In this document: one piece after another, positions 35,035-41,584 of the stretch
Layout of the letters: each line of letters starts with the position of its first letter
How positions within the stretch are numbered: position 1 is the stretch's first letter
Source of the DNA: Phycisphaerae bacterium
GTDB taxonomy: Bacteria > Planctomycetota > Phycisphaerae > Phycisphaerales > Phycisphaeraceae
Assembly: GCA_030432595.1 (NCBI GenBank)
Contig: JAUIGU010000001.1
Span: 186,001 to 250,000, forward strand
Direction of reading: 5' to 3'
DNA: 64,000 nt
Made by a program: the position numbers and the translations under genes
The notes under the pieces: generated by a model
What the model saw: only the letters and a program-made list of their open reading frames with translations
Databases searched by the model: none
What the model was told of the DNA's origin: nothing

Positions 35035-35231
35035 GCCACGGAGTGACCGCCACAGCGATTTCCGCCACGCCGAAGACACCGGCTACGCGCAACCGCCCTC
35101 CGGGGGCCCCCGGACACCACACGGCCACCGGCGAAGGTCTCAATAACTAAACGCAGAGAAAGCTCTTAGCAGATGGGGCCGATCAGTATCAGGGTTCTGA
35201 CTGACGGGGGCACTCTGTGCGAGGATCGGCC

Positions 35232-37637
35232 GTGAATCCGACCAACCTGCTTCCAGACCACCCCGGATCGGTTCCGGGGGAGACGCCCACCGCCACGACG
35301 CCGCCGCGGACCCGCGGGTGGAGACAACAGTCGTTGCCGTGGCTGCTCGCCGCGGTGGTGGTCGCGATCGGCCTGGGTATCACGGTCGACGGCACGCGCC
35401 GCGAACTCAATAAAGCCGCGCACACCGATGCCCAGCGCTTCGACCGACTCGCCGATCGCGTGAAGTCCGAAGTCGTCCGCCGGGTCACGGTCTACCGCTA
35501 CGGGCTGGGCGGGGCGCGCAGCCTGTTCCCGGCCAGCAACTTGGTCGAGCGGCACGAGTTCCTTGCCATGGTCGAGTCGCGGGACCTGCCGAGCGAGTTT
35601 CCCGGCTCACTGGGAATCGGGTACATCCACCGCGTACCGGCCGACCCGGAGGGGTTCGAGGCGTTCCTCACCGCCGCCCGCGCCGACGGCGCGCCCGACT
35701 TCGAGGTCACGATCCCGCCGGGCTCGGAGCCGATGCCCGGCGCGCGGATCAACGACCGGATGATCATCCAGTACATCATGCCGCTGGACGACAACCGCAG
35801 CGCCCGCGGCCTGGACATCGGTGCCCACCCGGTGCGCCGCGAGGCCGCCGAACGGGCCATGGTCACCGGCGAGGGCGCGATCACCGGCCGCATCGAACTC
35901 GTCCAGGACGACCAGAAGGTCGCGGGGTTTCTCTACCTTCTGCCGGTCTACGAAAAGGACGCCGAAACGCGGACCGAAGCGCAGCGCATCGACGCCCTGC
36001 GCGGCTGGGTCTACATGCCGATCCTCGGGCCCGCCGCGCTGGAAGGGACCCCCGAGGTCGCGGACGGTGAGATCGAGATCGAGGTCTACGACGGCCCCGA
36101 AGGCGACGCCGACCTGCTCATCTACGCGACCAGTGACCACGACCACCACCACGCACAGGCCGGACACAACGGCCGTACGCATGACCAACCCGACCTCCAC
36201 CAGCACGCGCCGATCCAGATCGGCGGGCGGACGTGGGCGGTCTCGCTGATCGCCGGCGACCGCTTCGTCCGGGCTTCACGTTCCCCGGCGTGGGTGGTCG
36301 CGGGCACCGGCACGGCGCTGACGACGCTGCTGGTGCTGCTCACGCTGCTCCTGGGCTCGGCGACCCGCCGCGCGTGGGCCATCGCCGAGGGCATGACCGC
36401 CGACATCCGCCGTTACGCCGACGCCGCCAACGCCGCCACCCTGGCCAAGAGCGAGTTTCTCGCCAACATGAGCCACGAGATCCGCACCCCCATGGCCGCG
36501 ATAATCGGCTATAGCGAACTCATGGACCAGGACCCGCTCACCGAGGCACAACGCGATCACCTGGCCACGATCAAACGCAACGGCGACCACCTCCTCAGCG
36601 TCATCAACGACATCCTGGACCTCTCCAAGATCGAGGCCGGCAAACTGAATGTCGAGGTCGTGCCGACCCGGCCCAACGAGGTACTGCTGCAGGTCCTCTC
36701 GCTCATGCAGGCCCAGGCCGCGGGCAAGAACATTACGCTCGACGCACACTTCGACACCGAGGTCCCCGAAGTCATCCAGAGCGACCCGGTCCGCTTGCGC
36801 CAGATCCTGATCAACCTCGTCGGCAACGCGGTGAAGTTCACGGAGATCGGCGGGGTCAACATCGCCGTCCGTCACGAGCCCAAACGGAGTCAACTCCTCT
36901 TCGAGGTCACCGACACCGGCATCGGCATGAGCGACGAACAGCTCGGGCGCATCTTCCAGAGCTTCGAGCAGGCCGACGCCTCAACCACCCGCCAGTACGG
37001 CGGGACCGGACTGGGCCTGATGATCAGCCAACGCCTCGCCGAGATGCTCGGCGGATCGATCGAGGCCGACAGCGTCCTGCACCGGGGCAGCTGCTTCTGC
37101 GTCGCCGTTGCTACGGGCAACACCGAGGGCGTGCCCATGCTGCCTTCCGGCAAGCCCGTCGTCGTCAACGCCGACGCCGAAGACTCCGCGACGGTTCAAG
37201 CACACAACTCCCCTCTCGAAGGGCGGCGCATCGTCCTGGCGGAAGACGGCATCGACAACCAGCGGCTCATCGGTTTCCACCTCCGCAAGGCCGGCGCCGA
37301 CGTGACCGTCGTGAACAACGGCGAAGAGCTGCTCGAAGCGATGTCGCACCACGGCGACGCCGACGGGCTCCTGCTCGACCCGCCGCCTTTCGACCTGGTG
37401 CTCTCGGACATGCAGATGCCGGTTATCGACGGCTATACCGCCGTGGCCCGGCTGCGGAAAAAGGGTTGCCGCCTGCCCATCATCGCGCTCACCGCCCACG
37501 CTATGGCCGGCGATCAGCAGCGCTGCCGCAACGCCGGCTGCGACGGTTACGAGAGCAAACCCATCGCCAAAGACAAACTGATCAACACCTGTATCGACGC
37601 CCTGCAACCCCCGAATACATCGGCCCGCGCCGCGTAA
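35232..37637 (+). CDS. CHASE-domain hybrid histidine kinase
   Basis: An 801-residue inner-membrane sensor. Order: TM1 (about 35-53), periplasmic CHASE domain (about 90-345), TM2 (about 352-378), HisKA with phosphoacceptor His415 in NMSHEIRTPM, HATPase_c (NLVGNAVKFTE, DTGIGM, GGTGLGLMIS), and a C-terminal receiver with Asp726 in LVLSDMQMPV. The periplasmic domain contains a His-rich stretch (about 299-328) with ten histidines, possibly metal-binding. I prefer GTG 35232 (GAGG 7 bases upstream) over GTG 35217. No partner regulator is adjacent. Confidence 0.92.
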   Translation: MNPTNLLPDHPGSVPGETPTATTPPRTRGWRQQSLPWLLAAVVVAIGLGITVDGTRRELNKAAHTDAQRFDRLADRVKSEVVRRVTVYRYGLGGARSLFPASNLVERHEFLAMVESRDLPSEFPGSLGIGYIHRVPADPEGFEAFLTAARADGAPDFEVTIPPGSEPMPGARINDRMIIQYIMPLDDNRSARGLDIGAHPVRREAAERAMVTGEGAITGRIELVQDDQKVAGFLYLLPVYEKDAETRTEAQRIDALRGWVYMPILGPAALEGTPEVADGEIEIEVYDGPEGDADLLIYATSDHDHHHAQAGHNGRTHDQPDLHQHAPIQIGGRTWAVSLIAGDRFVRASRSPAWVVAGTGTALTTLLVLLTLLLGSATRRAWAIAEGMTADIRRYADAANAATLAKSEFLANMSHEIRTPMAAIIGYSELMDQDPLTEAQRDHLATIKRNGDHLLSVINDILDLSKIEAGKLNVEVVPTRPNEVLLQVLSLMQAQAAGKNITLDAHFDTEVPEVIQSDPVRLRQILINLVGNAVKFTEIGGVNIAVRHEPKRSQLLFEVTDTGIGMSDEQLGRIFQSFEQADASTTRQYGGTGLGLMISQRLAEMLGGSIEADSVLHRGSCFCVAVATGNTEGVPMLPSGKPVVVNADAEDSATVQAHNSPLEGRRIVLAEDGIDNQRLIGFHLRKAGADVTVVNNGEELLEAMSHHGDADGLLLDPPPFDLVLSDMQMPVIDGYTAVARLRKKGCRLPIIALTAHAMAGDQQRCRNAGCDGYESKPIAKDKLINTCIDALQPPNTSARAA

Positions 37638-37730
37638 GCATCGACATCACGGTACTTCACCGCGAGAAAGCACCCTCAATTCGGAAAACTCCACCGTACC
37701 CATTCCGTGGGCAATGCACGGGTTACCCAA

Positions 37731-37814
37731 AGGCCGCGGTGGGATTCGAACCCACGACTGGCAGAGCCAAGCGGATTTGCAATCCGCCCCCTTAGTCCAC
37801 TCGGGCACGCGGCC
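37731..37814 (-). tRNA. tRNA-Cys (GCA) with a long, class II-like variable arm
   Basis: On the minus strand the cloverleaf has a 7-bp acceptor stem (GGCCGCG with CGCGGCC), a 3-bp D stem with an 11-base loop, anticodon arm GCGGA-TTGCAAA-TCCGC giving anticodon GCA, and T arm GTGGG-TTCGAAT-CCCAC. The discriminator is U, as in tRNA-Cys. The variable region is 15 bases, TTGGCTCTGCCAGTC, and forms a 4-bp stem TGGC/GCCA; ordinary tRNA-Cys has a 4-5 base variable loop. CCA is not encoded. Confidence 0.93.
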
Positions 37815-37911
37815 GGCGTGTCGGCCCGGGAGGGGACGGGCCGAGCGGCGTAGTGTAGCGTGCGGTAACGCCCGCGCGCGGTGGTGGAGGTTTCGGGGCG
37901 CGGCGCCCGAT

Positions 37912-40900
37912 TCACGCCGAGGCCCGGGCCGCGATGTTGACGTGCCGACGCCCGCGCCACGCCAACGACAAATACGCCAGCCCCAGCACGCCCGGCTCGG
38001 GGACGGGCGAACCTGAGAAATCCGGCGACTGGGTGTTGCCCCAGTTCAGCAGCACGCCGTCGAGCTGGGTCTGAGCGATGAGCCCGGTGGGCACCTGGTT
38101 CACCCAGCCGTTGGGCACGCCCTGCGTGCTGGTGTCGCGGCCCCAGTTCAGGAGCACGAGGTCCAGGTCGCCCTGCTCGACGCCGCCACTGCCGTTGTAG
38201 TCACCGGGGATGAACGCGGCGGCCACGACTTCGAGCTGCACGCTGTTGGAGAGGTAGTTCACGTCGAACGTCAGGCCGCCGGGCATGCCGATCGGCTGGA
38301 AGATGTTGTTGAATGTGCCGACGACGCTCGACGCCGAAAGGACATCAAGGGTGTCGCCGAGCGCGGGCGTGTAGCCGTTGATCAGCGAGAGCCGCAGCGT
38401 GCCGTCGAGGGTGGCGGTGCGGTTGGTGGTGAGGCGGTCGTGTTCGGTGGGCGCAGTTCCGCCCAGGCCGAAATCGAGACGGCCGGTGTTTTCCTGGGTG
38501 AAGAGGCCAAACACTTCGATCAGGCCGGAGGTGTCAACGGCGTTCTCGTTGCCGGGCGCGAGGGTGCCGCGGTTGATGACGGTGCCGATGCTGGAGATGA
38601 ACGACAGCGCGCCGATGCCGCGGATCTCGCCGGTGGTTTCGTTGGTGGTGGTGCCGCTTCCGATGTATTGGGGCCTGCCACCGGCCGAGTTGTCAAGCAC
38701 GATCTCGCCGCGGTTGATCAGGGGGTCGCCGCCGGAGGGGAGGCCCCAACTCGCCGTGCCGGTGTTGCCGGCGATGAGGTGAACGGTCGCGTTGGGGCTG
38801 ACCTCTCCACCGAGGCCGCCGCCGCCTTCGAGCATGAACGTGCCGCCGCCCGTGACGCCGGAACCGAAGTTGAGCGCGCCGCCGTCGAGATGGATCGGGT
38901 TGCCGGTGATGTTTCCGCCGTCGTAGTTGAACCGAGCGCCGCCTATATCGATCGTGCCGTTGATGGTCAGCGTGCCGGCCTGCTGAGTGAAGGTGCCGCC
39001 GCTGAGGCCGGACACCGAGCCGCCGGCCTGAACGGTGAAGTTGGCGCGGTTGGTGGTGCGCAGGGCGCGGTATTCGGAGTTGGGCTCGACGACGACGAGG
39101 TTGCGGTTGTCGATCTCGCCGTTGACCTGGCGGACGCCGCCGTCGCCCAGGGCGTGGTCATTGCGGGTGCGGAAGGTGCCGAAGTTGGTGAGGTTGAGGT
39201 TGGCGAAGAGCGGCCCCATGCGGAAGACGTGCAGGCCGGTGCCGTCGCCGCCGAGAATGATGGTGCCGTTGTTGCTGAGGTCGCCGGGCGTGTCGGACAC
39301 GAGGGAGACGACCGCGTCGTTGCGGAGTTCGATCGTCTGGCCGGGCCGAACGTTGCCGGCCAAGTGACCGCCGCGGAGGATGAACGACGCCGGACCGGTG
39401 GTCGGCCCCAACGTGAGCGCCGCGCCGGTGATGTCGATGGCGTTTCCGGTGATGGTGCCGCCGTTGAAGGTGAAGTCGTCGCCGGACAGCAGGAACGCGC
39501 CTTGGTTATTGATGTTGCCGGCGTCGTGGGTGAAGTCGCTGCTGCCGGTGGTCGAGTTGATTGTGCCGTTAACGCCGATGTTGACATCGCCGTTGTTAAC
39601 GACCGCGGGATTGAGGGTGAGCGTGGTGTCGGGATCGACGTTGATCTGTCCGAAGTTGGTGATGCGCGCGCCGCTGGACGCACCGATGGTGCGCTGGTTG
39701 GTGCTGCCGGGCACGCCGACGGCGTGGATCTCGCCGGTGTTGGTGAGGACGGACTGGTTGCCGTTAAGGCTGAAGGTGGGCGAGCCGTTGGACGCGGCAC
39801 CGGTGATGCGGAGCGTGCCGTGGTTGGAGAAGGAGAAGTCGCCGCTGAAGACCGTGCCGCGTCGCAGGCTCGTGTTGCCGGTCTGAGCGTCGAGGACGAC
39901 GGTCTGACTCGATCCGATATCGCCGCCGCGCAGCTCGTTGAACGTGCCGCCGATGAAGTGGAAGGTGGCGGGCGAGTTGCCGCCGGCCAGGTCCAGCTGC
40001 CCGCCGCTGAATTCAATGGGGTTGCCGGTGAGGGTGCCGCCCGCATAGCGGAAGACCGACTCGCCGCTGGTGCCGTTGAAGAAGAGCCGGCCCTGGTTGT
40101 TCAGCGTGCCGCCGTTCATGTCGAAGTCGTCGGAGCTGCCGAAGAGCAACTCGCCGCCGGTGCCGACCATGACCGTGCCGGTGTTGGTCAGGTCACCGTC
40201 GAAAGTAAGGGTCGCGCCGGGATCGACGATGAGGTCGCCCGAGCCGACGTTGTTGACCGTGCCCTGCCCGCCGGAGATGCGGCGTGCTTGGTTGCCGCCG
40301 GCGGCGAAGGCGGCGCGGAGGGTGCCGACGTTGGTCATGGTCGCGCCGCTCTGCAGCCCCAAGGCCGTGGTGGCGGTGGTGGCGCCGGTGAGGCGGACCT
40401 CGCCGCGGTTCTCGAAGCTGCCGGTGGTGCTGACCGTGGTGGCGCCGGTGGCGTCGCCGATGAACAGGTCGATGTTGGCGTGGATGCTGCCGGTTAGGGC
40501 CCCGCTCTGGTTGAACTGGAAGGCGGGGTTGCCGACGCTGCCGCCGGGCGTGGCCAGCGGGACCAGGAGGTTCAGGGCACCGCCCTCCATCTCGATCGCG
40601 TTGCCGGTGATCGTGCCGCCGTGGTGGTTGAACACACCGCCGGGGTTGATGTTGAACTCGGTGTTGGCCCCGGTGTTGTCGATCGACCCGGAGCGCAGGT
40701 CGATGGTGCTGTTGGAGCCGATGTTGAAGATGCCGCGGTTGTTGATGGCGGCGCCATCGAGGTCGAGGACGGCGCTGCTGCCGAGGTTGACGGTGCCATC
40801 GTTGGTGATCGTGCCGCCGTCAAAGTTGAGGGTGTGACCGCTGCCGGTGAAGTTGGCGGTGCCGCCGGCCAGGACATCGAACGCACCCGCGGTCTGGTTG

Positions 40901-41475
40901 AAGGTGGCGCCGGCGCGGTTGAGATTCATGGTCCCGCCGCCGCCGACCGAAAAGGTGCCAGAGTTGGCGACATTGCTGCTGATGGTGCCGCTGCCGGAGA
41001 TGATGCGGACGGTGCCGCCGTTGGTGAGTTGGGCGGCAGAGTTGTTGACCGTACCGCTGGTGAACGAGAGCGTGCCGGCGGTGTTGGCGAAACCAGTGAT
41101 GGTGGTCAGAGTGCCGCCCTGCATCAGCAGCTCGCCGCCGTTCATCACGGCCGAGTCGATCATCACGCTGGTGTTCAGCGTCGTGGTCTTGTCCAGCCCG
41201 AAGATCGCACGGTCGCTCACGTCGTCGGGGTGCTCCCCGGAGATGCCGCCGCCGAACAGTTGCCACGGGGAAAAGCCCGGCGGGCCGTTGGGCGTCTCCC
41301 GATCAAACCAGCCGAACACGTCCGCCGTCGCCGACCAGAAAAAATCCACGGCGGACGCGGGCATCGCGCACGCGCAGACCAAGCCACCGACGGCCGCGAC
41401 CGGGCCCCGGGCACGCCCCAGACCCGCCACTCGACGCCGGCTGCCGCCGTTCACACCACTACGACGTTCTCGCAT
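37912..41475 (-). CDS. Large exported repeat protein with dockerin-like motifs and PEP-CTERM anchor
   Basis: A 1187-residue protein: signal peptide (about 1-43), then roughly 1000 residues of degenerate beta-helix repeats with recurring GGT(I/L)xGNxI, xNxGTxxxG and GGxLxL units, as in autotransporter-like adhesins. Near the C-terminus are calcium-binding dockerin-like motifs (GDYNGSGGVEQGDLDLVLLN and a second, degenerate unit ending LDGVLLNWG), then the PEP-CTERM sorting tail (VPEPGVLGLAYLSL and a basic end). It should be exported and processed by an exosortase, none of which is in this window. AGGAGA lies 6 bases before ATG 41475. Surface or matrix role is inferred. Confidence 0.85.
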   Translation of the reverse strand: MRERRSGVNGGSRRRVAGLGRARGPVAAVGGLVCACAMPASAVDFFWSATADVFGWFDRETPNGPPGFSPWQLFGGGISGEHPDDVSDRAIFGLDKTTTLNTSVMIDSAVMNGGELLMQGGTLTTITGFANTAGTLSFTSGTVNNSAAQLTNGGTVRIISGSGTISSNVANSGTFSVGGGGTMNLNRAGATFNQTAGAFDVLAGGTANFTGSGHTLNFDGGTITNDGTVNLGSSAVLDLDGAAINNRGIFNIGSNSTIDLRSGSIDNTGANTEFNINPGGVFNHHGGTITGNAIEMEGGALNLLVPLATPGGSVGNPAFQFNQSGALTGSIHANIDLFIGDATGATTVSTTGSFENRGEVRLTGATTATTALGLQSGATMTNVGTLRAAFAAGGNQARRISGGQGTVNNVGSGDLIVDPGATLTFDGDLTNTGTVMVGTGGELLFGSSDDFDMNGGTLNNQGRLFFNGTSGESVFRYAGGTLTGNPIEFSGGQLDLAGGNSPATFHFIGGTFNELRGGDIGSSQTVVLDAQTGNTSLRRGTVFSGDFSFSNHGTLRITGAASNGSPTFSLNGNQSVLTNTGEIHAVGVPGSTNQRTIGASSGARITNFGQINVDPDTTLTLNPAVVNNGDVNIGVNGTINSTTGSSDFTHDAGNINNQGAFLLSGDDFTFNGGTITGNAIDITGAALTLGPTTGPASFILRGGHLAGNVRPGQTIELRNDAVVSLVSDTPGDLSNNGTIILGGDGTGLHVFRMGPLFANLNLTNFGTFRTRNDHALGDGGVRQVNGEIDNRNLVVVEPNSEYRALRTTNRANFTVQAGGSVSGLSGGTFTQQAGTLTINGTIDIGGARFNYDGGNITGNPIHLDGGALNFGSGVTGGGTFMLEGGGGLGGEVSPNATVHLIAGNTGTASWGLPSGGDPLINRGEIVLDNSAGGRPQYIGSGTTTNETTGEIRGIGALSFISSIGTVINRGTLAPGNENAVDTSGLIEVFGLFTQENTGRLDFGLGGTAPTEHDRLTTNRTATLDGTLRLSLINGYTPALGDTLDVLSASSVVGTFNNIFQPIGMPGGLTFDVNYLSNSVQLEVVAAAFIPGDYNGSGGVEQGDLDLVLLNWGRDTSTQGVPNGWVNQVPTGLIAQTQLDGVLLNWGNTQSPDFSGSPVPEPGVLGLAYLSLAWRGRRHVNIAARASA

Positions 41476-41584
41476 CGTTCTCTCCTGAAATGACCGGAGT
41501 CGCACGGGTTTCCTTGAAAGCCCAGCACAACCCACGCGGAGGACATGACTCACCAACCCCCTTTGTACCCGCAACCAAGCCCCG

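Follow-up and report, generated by a model that had tools for sequence, protein, structure and literature searches.

A tRNA-Cys of class II shape as the only cysteine tRNA found in a planctomycete genome

We found that a 64-kb stretch of a Phycisphaerae genome (hereafter the window, meaning the whole stretch analysed) carries a tRNA-Cys(GCA) gene of class II shape with 7/5 acceptor and T stems, and that this is the only tRNA-Cys found in its genome. This combination appears to be new: a literature search, with subscription journals mostly outside it, turned up neither a class II tRNA-Cys with 7/5 stems nor a class I tRNA-Leu in bacteria. The function of the gene is most likely the ordinary one, cysteine decoding, and its form is unusual. 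The explanation that best covers the data, to which we assign a probability of roughly 0.85, is that the gene is the sole working tRNA-Cys of the organism, that it passed from class I to class II in place, and that CysRS relies on GCA and U73 to charge it, without regard to the arm.

ARAGORN called the gene at 37731–37814 on the minus strand as an 84-nt tRNA-Cys(GCA), and Rfam RF00005 matched the same positions (56.9 bits, E 1.3e-9, gathering score 29). ARAGORN called no further tRNA in the 64-kb window. The flanking ORFs, described from reading their translations, are histidine-kinase-like (35217–37637, plus strand) and long and repeat-rich (37912–41574, minus strand); no consensus promoter or terminator was seen in 37600–38000, where about zero would also be expected by chance. 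Both ARAGORN and the minimum free energy (MFE) fold pair the acceptor strands GGCCGCG (37808–37814) and CGCGGCC (37732–37738) and form the T arm GUGGG-UUCGAAU-CCCAC (37739–37755), giving 7/5 stems without a bulge. The gene ends in discriminator U73 (37731), listed as a cysteine identity element in the part of a review that we cite (PMC9976931), and CCA is not encoded. The anticodon GCA (37778–37780) begins at gene position 35. The D arm (37789–37805) has a 3-bp stem, CCC/GGG, and an 11-nt span from G13 to A22 (unpaired) that includes G15, 20a and 20b. With G9 at 37806, positions 9-13-22 read G-G-A, the base set common to class II tRNAs.

The variable region (37756–37770) is 15 nt long and consists of U44, the arm UGGC-UCU-GCCA and an unpaired GUC. 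The MFE fold of the 84-nt gene is a class II cloverleaf (−40.7 kcal/mol, z −1.93, equalled by 10 of 200 shuffles) with a 7-bp acceptor stem, a 3-bp D stem, an anticodon stem, a 4-bp variable arm and a 5-bp T stem. In this fold the variable arm (37759–37769), whose pairing is also seen in relatives, has a 3-nt loop, three unpaired nucleotides precede the T stem and U73 is unpaired. A better fold with a short variable loop was looked for and rejected, both the MFE and the centroid structure being the class II fold. The class II tRNA-Cys of the window is real, and the initial annotation was right about GCA and the discriminator U, which indicate cysteine, and about the 15-base variable region with its 4-bp stem and 3-base loop. 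It had also read the 3-bp D stem as a class II feature; the stem is there, but it does not set class II apart: the unarmed tRNA-Cys genes of relatives show a 3-bp D stem as well, in most cases beside an A13·A22 mismatch.

The whole genome (4.39 Mb, 73 contigs, 99.1% complete) gave 46 tRNA matches in a covariance search. At these 46 places ARAGORN called 45 different tRNA genes, one of which has the anticodon GCA, so both cysteine codons must be read by the window tRNA unless another gene lies in a contig gap. The idea of an additional tRNA is thus not supported, no second tRNA-Cys having been found by the genome-wide search that the initial annotation had proposed. One weak match (L046, G000:C39:48967–49046; 30.1 bits), with a well-paired T arm, a mismatched acceptor stem and no ARAGORN call, is probably a tRNA remnant. 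The genome also encodes a single CysRS above the curated cut-off (357 bits against 340), a protein of 518 amino acids in which HIGH- and KMSKS-type motifs can be read.

Comparison with the tRNA-Cys of other planctomycetes, also proposed at the outset, gave a divided picture. We surveyed relatives with a pattern that begins in the anticodon loop and ends in the T loop, and took the class from the match length; the pattern requires a UUGCAAA loop and is blind to GCA tRNAs with other loops, such as a class I tRNA-Cys in a tRNA array of genome G009. Across 61 genomes, our own included, 30 had a class II tRNA-Cys, 27 a class I tRNA-Cys and 4 no match; in the family of the organism the numbers were 25, 8 and 4. 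Double matches in G019, G025 and G027 were of the same class within each genome, the G019 match at L057 being a 3′ half only, and G009 has a class II gene in addition to the array copy with the other loop. In a sample of the phylum, a class II-only pattern matched 20 of 392 genomes. Eleven of these matches are real by reading, all within the order of the organism (31 genomes sampled there); the match in G021 is a chance one, and among the 8 outside the order ARAGORN called a tRNA-Cys at G351 only.

A GTDB-wide scan with the pattern returned at least 119 stretches, at least 103 of which hold a class II tRNA-Cys by ARAGORN. Among the 103 class II genes listed, 95 come from records titled Planctomycetota (77 of them Phycisphaerae), 4 from unnamed records and 4 from others. 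The titles point to Phycisphaerales as the probable order of the organism. The 103 include a gene with a poor fold (L210), a selC*-like gene (L203), a 93-nt form like that in G351 (L158) and L187, a Phycisphaerae-type tRNA-Cys in a record titled Leptolyngbya sp. PLA1 that looks mislabelled. Sixteen of the 119 stretches listed lack an ARAGORN class II tRNA-Cys: four are from Phycisphaerae, three of them 3′ halves (L129, L170, L173) and one cut by a contig end (L195), and the remaining 12 received no tRNA-Cys call, L199 resembling one by eye. L199 (Roseivivax) and L213 (Salipiger) are Rhodobacterales tRNA clusters with a GCA tRNA that has a long variable region and an encoded CCA (L199 by eye only), and these GCA tRNAs are probably mobile-element tRNAs. 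The suggestion of a lineage-specific tRNA-Cys is thereby upheld, as the sole GCA tRNA found in this genome is of a form that recurs in one order and whose named records are mostly Phycisphaerae.

Once genes with an identical first 70 nt had been reduced to one and structures that the parser could not read set aside, 79 armed and 38 unarmed unique tRNA-Cys genes remained, where armed means a variable region of at least 10 nt. U73 is present in all 79 and all 38. Pairing within the arm was compared with shuffles, which ignore relatedness. Among 23 distinct variable regions of 14 nt, 76 of 92 cells are paired against a shuffle mean of 52, a count that 0 of 1,000 shuffles reached; the 13 distinct regions of 16 nt have 55 of 65 cells paired, again reached by 0 of 1,000. 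For regions of 15 nt, the length found in the window gene (11 distinct), the count of 45 of 55 was reached by 100 of 1,000 shuffles and is not significant. The variable region is only 12–13 nt long in 13 of the 79 armed genes, and 4 of 54 distinct variable regions form only 2 bp.

Within the family, armed and unarmed tRNA-Cys have their acceptor, D, anticodon and T arms in common. In the clearest case, a class II gene (L052, in G007) becomes, on removal of 10 nt, a class I gene (L053, in G015) letter for letter. The matching bodies mean that the arm appeared or disappeared within an existing tRNA-Cys gene, which speaks against the proposed descent from a class II ancestor. Mapped on a 57-row CysRS tree, the tRNA-Cys class needs nine changes, at least three of them forced by well-supported (starred) branches, and tRNA-Cys of class II shape thus appears to have been gained or lost several times.

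An alternative source for such a gene is a tRNA-Tyr recruited to cysteine by one anticodon change (GUA to GCA) together with A73 to U73. The arm layout is indeed of the tRNA-Tyr type: within the genome, three unpaired nucleotides separate arm and T stem in tRNA-Cys and in tRNA-Tyr (a comparison based on one tRNA-Tyr gene), two in all three class II tRNA-Leu and one in all four tRNA-Ser. Near-identical arms also occur in some tRNA-Tyr and tRNA-Cys of relatives, for example UGGCGUAAGCC, and tRNA-Tyr is of class II length in 39 of 41 relatives, our own genome included (counted by eye). However, the acceptor and T arms match class I tRNA-Cys of the family and not tRNA-Tyr, and the hairpin is the only difference between the two genes matched letter for letter, so we regard recruitment of a whole tRNA-Tyr as very unlikely. 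It is possible that the arm alone was copied from tRNA-Tyr by recombination, and GNRA-type loops could also have converged between the two tRNAs.

We therefore return to a change in place, for which the core of the molecule offers a further pattern. Positions 9-13-22 are G-G-A in 71 of the 79 armed genes and in 7 of the 38 unarmed ones, and A9 and A13 are kept in 8 of the 79. G9 and G13·A22 interact in class II cores, as in the structure of tRNA-Ser. In unarmed tRNA-Cys from outside the order, A13 is found in 19 of the 20 genes fetched, so that the 13–22 pair is mostly absent there; the 11-nt D span is already present in 25 of the 38 unarmed genes. Within the tree set, all 25 armed genes and 7 of the 20 unarmed ones have G13. 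Only three independent armed/unarmed pairs stand on starred branches, however (sign test, median p 0.5), and G-G-A occurs in 49 of 98 unarmed phage tRNA-Cys (among the class I viral genes listed, repeats included). The G-G-A core is thus not specific to or diagnostic of the arm, and the link between G13 and the arm is a pattern, not proof.

On the preferred reading, a class I tRNA-Cys in the ancestry of this lineage would have become class II in place by gaining a hairpin in the variable region, a direction suggested by the comparison of relatives. By comparison the added hairpin measures about 7–11 nt across most relatives, and 10 nt between the two genes matched letter for letter. The starting tRNA probably mostly lacked a 13–22 pair, and a long D loop that includes 20a and 20b is already found in many unarmed relatives. 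Armed forms would then mostly have taken on G9 and G13·A22, like tRNA-Ser and tRNA-Tyr, although the order of these steps may have differed.

We found no sign that CysRS has adapted to the arm. U73 and GCA are the major cysteine determinants, to which the 15–48 pair is added in E. coli, according to the cited portion of the review (PMC9976931); in the window gene the parsed positions hold G15 and C48. Among the 25 armed and 8 unarmed genomes of the family, the best of 743 tests for CysRS residues that track the arm reached p 0.0017, against a threshold of 6.7e-5, and no CysRS column has disjoint residues between 30 armed and 25 unarmed genomes. The matching CysRS changes that the initial annotation had envisaged are thus missing, in that no column separates armed from unarmed genomes. 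An ordinary CysRS may therefore read GCA and U73 and leave the arm unused, a view that also draws on the repeated gain and loss of the arm.

A long arm could instead draw SerRS, so that UGU and UGC would be read as serine or as a mixture of serine and cysteine. SerRS identity lies mainly in the variable arm and not in the anticodon in the review's partial account (PMC9976931), and the D arm of the window gene is similar to that of the genome's own tRNA-Ser. Yet the discriminator is U rather than the G73 of tRNA-Ser and tRNA-Sec, and the arm has 4 bp and three unpaired nucleotides, as opposed to 6–7 bp and one in the four tRNA-Ser of the genome. In the 30 armed genomes, moreover, TGC or TGT falls on cysteine columns in 90 of 101 scored cases, and those 90 are three invariant CysRS cysteine columns in each genome, two of which presumably match known zinc ligands. 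As these conserved cysteines are encoded by TGC/TGT in 30 of 30 genomes, full reassignment to serine is very unlikely. We consider a serine-charged tRNA as a whole highly improbable, with low-level serine/cysteine ambiguity the part of it that might still occur. Reassignment of cysteine or leucine codons is not supported by the codons at conserved columns.

Charging by CysRS, the reading that we favour, also fits the geometry of the arm. The number of unpaired bases in the arm is among the predicted class II determinants, as far as the cited text goes (PMC9976931). A short stem followed by three unpaired nucleotides is the tRNA-Tyr type, whereas tRNA-Ser has one such nucleotide and class II tRNA-Leu has two; this difference would guard against SerRS and LeuRS, and C35 and U73, in place of the U35 and A73 of tRNA-Tyr, would guard against TyrRS. 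The window tRNA would then read both UGU and UGC as cysteine.

A phage, an integrating element or a mobile tRNA array might also have brought the arm by replacing the tRNA-Cys or its 3′ half. Class II tRNA-Cys do occur in viruses: a class II pattern matched 63 IMG/VR stretches (L330–L392), 56 of which hold a class II tRNA-Cys (43 unique, all 43 with U73), and one of these viral genes (L340) has a body like those of planctomycete tRNA-Cys and no CCA. A class I pattern matched at least 120 stretches, with a class I tRNA-Cys called by ARAGORN in 96 of the 120 listed, so class II is the smaller group in IMG/VR. The Karamvirus (Tevenvirinae) phages PG7 and Pet-CM3-4 (L513, L514), whose recorded hosts are Enterobacter and Cronobacter, each have an annotated tRNA-Cys of 85 nt with a class II arm and U73 (ARAGORN). 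Pseudomonas phage D6 shows a full-length 92% sequence match at an annotated tRNA-Cys, and Acj61 has a class I tRNA-Cys gene. Since phages presumably must rely on host CysRS, their armed genes would mean that an ordinary CysRS accepts the arm. When the window tRNA was compared by similarity with phage records, 27 of them matched, each over less than 80% of the tRNA.

Armed tRNA-Cys 3′ halves, which start in the anticodon stem or loop, extend to the gene end and lack a 5′ half, occur at L057 (G019), L129, L170 and L173. They are the trace expected from integration at a tRNA gene and could move arms between genes. No Pfam integrase was found in the 20 ORFs tested around the four halves. Near the half at L129 there are matches to Cas1, Cas2 and a Cas9-like RuvC-III domain. 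Relatives also carry tRNA arrays that look mobile, of 36 genes (L532, G009:C13) and 38 genes (L533, G018:C180), with another dense array in G024 (L097); odd tRNA-Ser and tRNA-Tyr folds occur in the arrays, and L533 includes a tRNA called SeC(tca). The arrays of G009 and G018, however, carry class I and not class II tRNA-Cys, and the body of the window gene is that of the family's class I genes. Import of the arm is, in our judgement, very unlikely.

A pseudogene or a special-purpose tRNA, either selC*-like or an allo-tRNA, would be a further way to explain a long variable arm combined with GCA and U73. selC* tRNA-Cys is extra to the normal tRNA-Cys. It shares with the window gene cysteine identity, GCA, U73 and the long variable arm, but it is tRNA-Sec-like, with 8/4 acceptor and T stems and an A51a bulge (Mukai et al. 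2017, as covered in part of a review, PMC7609411), whereas the window gene has unbulged 7/5 stems and is the sole tRNA-Cys found. A selC*-like origin was rejected on the stems, and with recurrence of the gene through the order we hold the whole alternative to be extremely improbable. The genome of a distant planctomycete, G351, has a 93-nt selC*-like tRNA(GCA) (L523, G351:C100) and two CysRS-like genes (loci L283 and L289), the second in a 422-aa frame; this system resembles selC*/CysRS*, and the listing of phyla in the cited part of that review (PMC7609411) does not include planctomycetes.

The window gene is closest to ordinary bacterial class I tRNA-Cys, sharing GCA, U73, 7/5 stems, the T arm, a D arm mostly without a 13–22 pair and the gene body of its class I relatives; it differs in the added variable hairpin and in G9 with G13·A22, which usually replace A9 with A13·A22 in armed genes. 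Nematode nev-tRNAs likewise place a class II arm on a tRNA with the anticodon of a class I amino acid, but in the sections cited (PMC4033280, PMC4810241) they are eukaryotic, nev-tRNA-Gly decoded its codon as leucine and two were very lowly expressed. In contrast to these nematode-specific tRNAs, which are extra to a normal isoacceptor, the window gene is bacterial, stands alone for its codons among the tRNAs found and retains the cysteine identity elements.

The rule, invoked by the initial annotation, that class II arms belong to Leu, Ser, Tyr and Sec has a second exception in this genome. Its only tRNA-Leu(UAA) (L036, G000:C69:138270–138343, minus strand) is class I, with 74 nt, a short variable loop and A73, whereas the other three tRNA-Leu are class II. 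ARAGORN called no tRNA-Leu(CAA) in the genome, so the tRNA-Leu(UAA) should read both UUA and UUG. Across 12 unique class I tRNA-Leu(UAA) verified by ARAGORN (this one and 11 from relatives), A73 is present in 12 and A15–U48 in 11, and positions 9-13-22 are A-C-A in all 12, whereas G9 is found in 14 of 14 unique class II ones. In E. coli, LeuRS depends on A73, A15–U48 and bases of the D loop and accepts a tRNA that has lost the arm, according to the review in the part cited (PMC9976931); the armless tRNA-Leu(UAA) runs against a statement in that same text. One LeuRS lies above the cut-off in the genome. In the 15 genomes with class I tRNA-Leu, one of them (G018) so labelled from its tRNA array, TTA or TTG falls on leucine columns in 50 of 53 cases. 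Animal mitochondrial tRNA-Leu and tRNA-Ser without a long arm give a precedent for arm loss (PMC9976931, in part); here, by contrast, the gene lies on a bacterial chromosome beside three class II tRNA-Leu.

The arm classes of tRNA-Cys and tRNA-Leu do not go together. Counted by eye and given as Cys/Leu class, 9 genomes are II/I, 18 are II/II, 5 are I/I and 20 are I/II, and the Leu class needs four changes on the CysRS tree. The arrays of G009 and G018 carry class I tRNA-Leu with anticodons CAG, CAA and GAG, and that of G018 also UAA, so a mobile source of class I tRNA-Leu is possible. A broader and improbable idea is that the variable-arm class is an exchangeable module here and in phages, carried on tRNA 3′ halves by integrating elements and arrays. 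Under tRNA-cleaving or tRNA-modifying enzymes such as host defence nucleases, and not by neutral drift, it would be switched on for tRNA-Cys and off for tRNA-Leu, making the arm a shield and not a charging signal.

Bacterial tRNA genes have been called surprisingly uniform (in the passage cited from a review, PMC4033280), and one author, in the part of the work cited, lists tRNA-Cys as class I and argues for a single origin of class II tRNAs (PMC4810241). The order described here runs against these views, and does so in presumably essential genes. Textbooks tie the arm more closely to the amino acid than these tRNAs bear out. Armed tRNA-Cys are natural templates for engineered tRNAs, and close armed/unarmed pairs make the share of the arm in tRNA identity testable.
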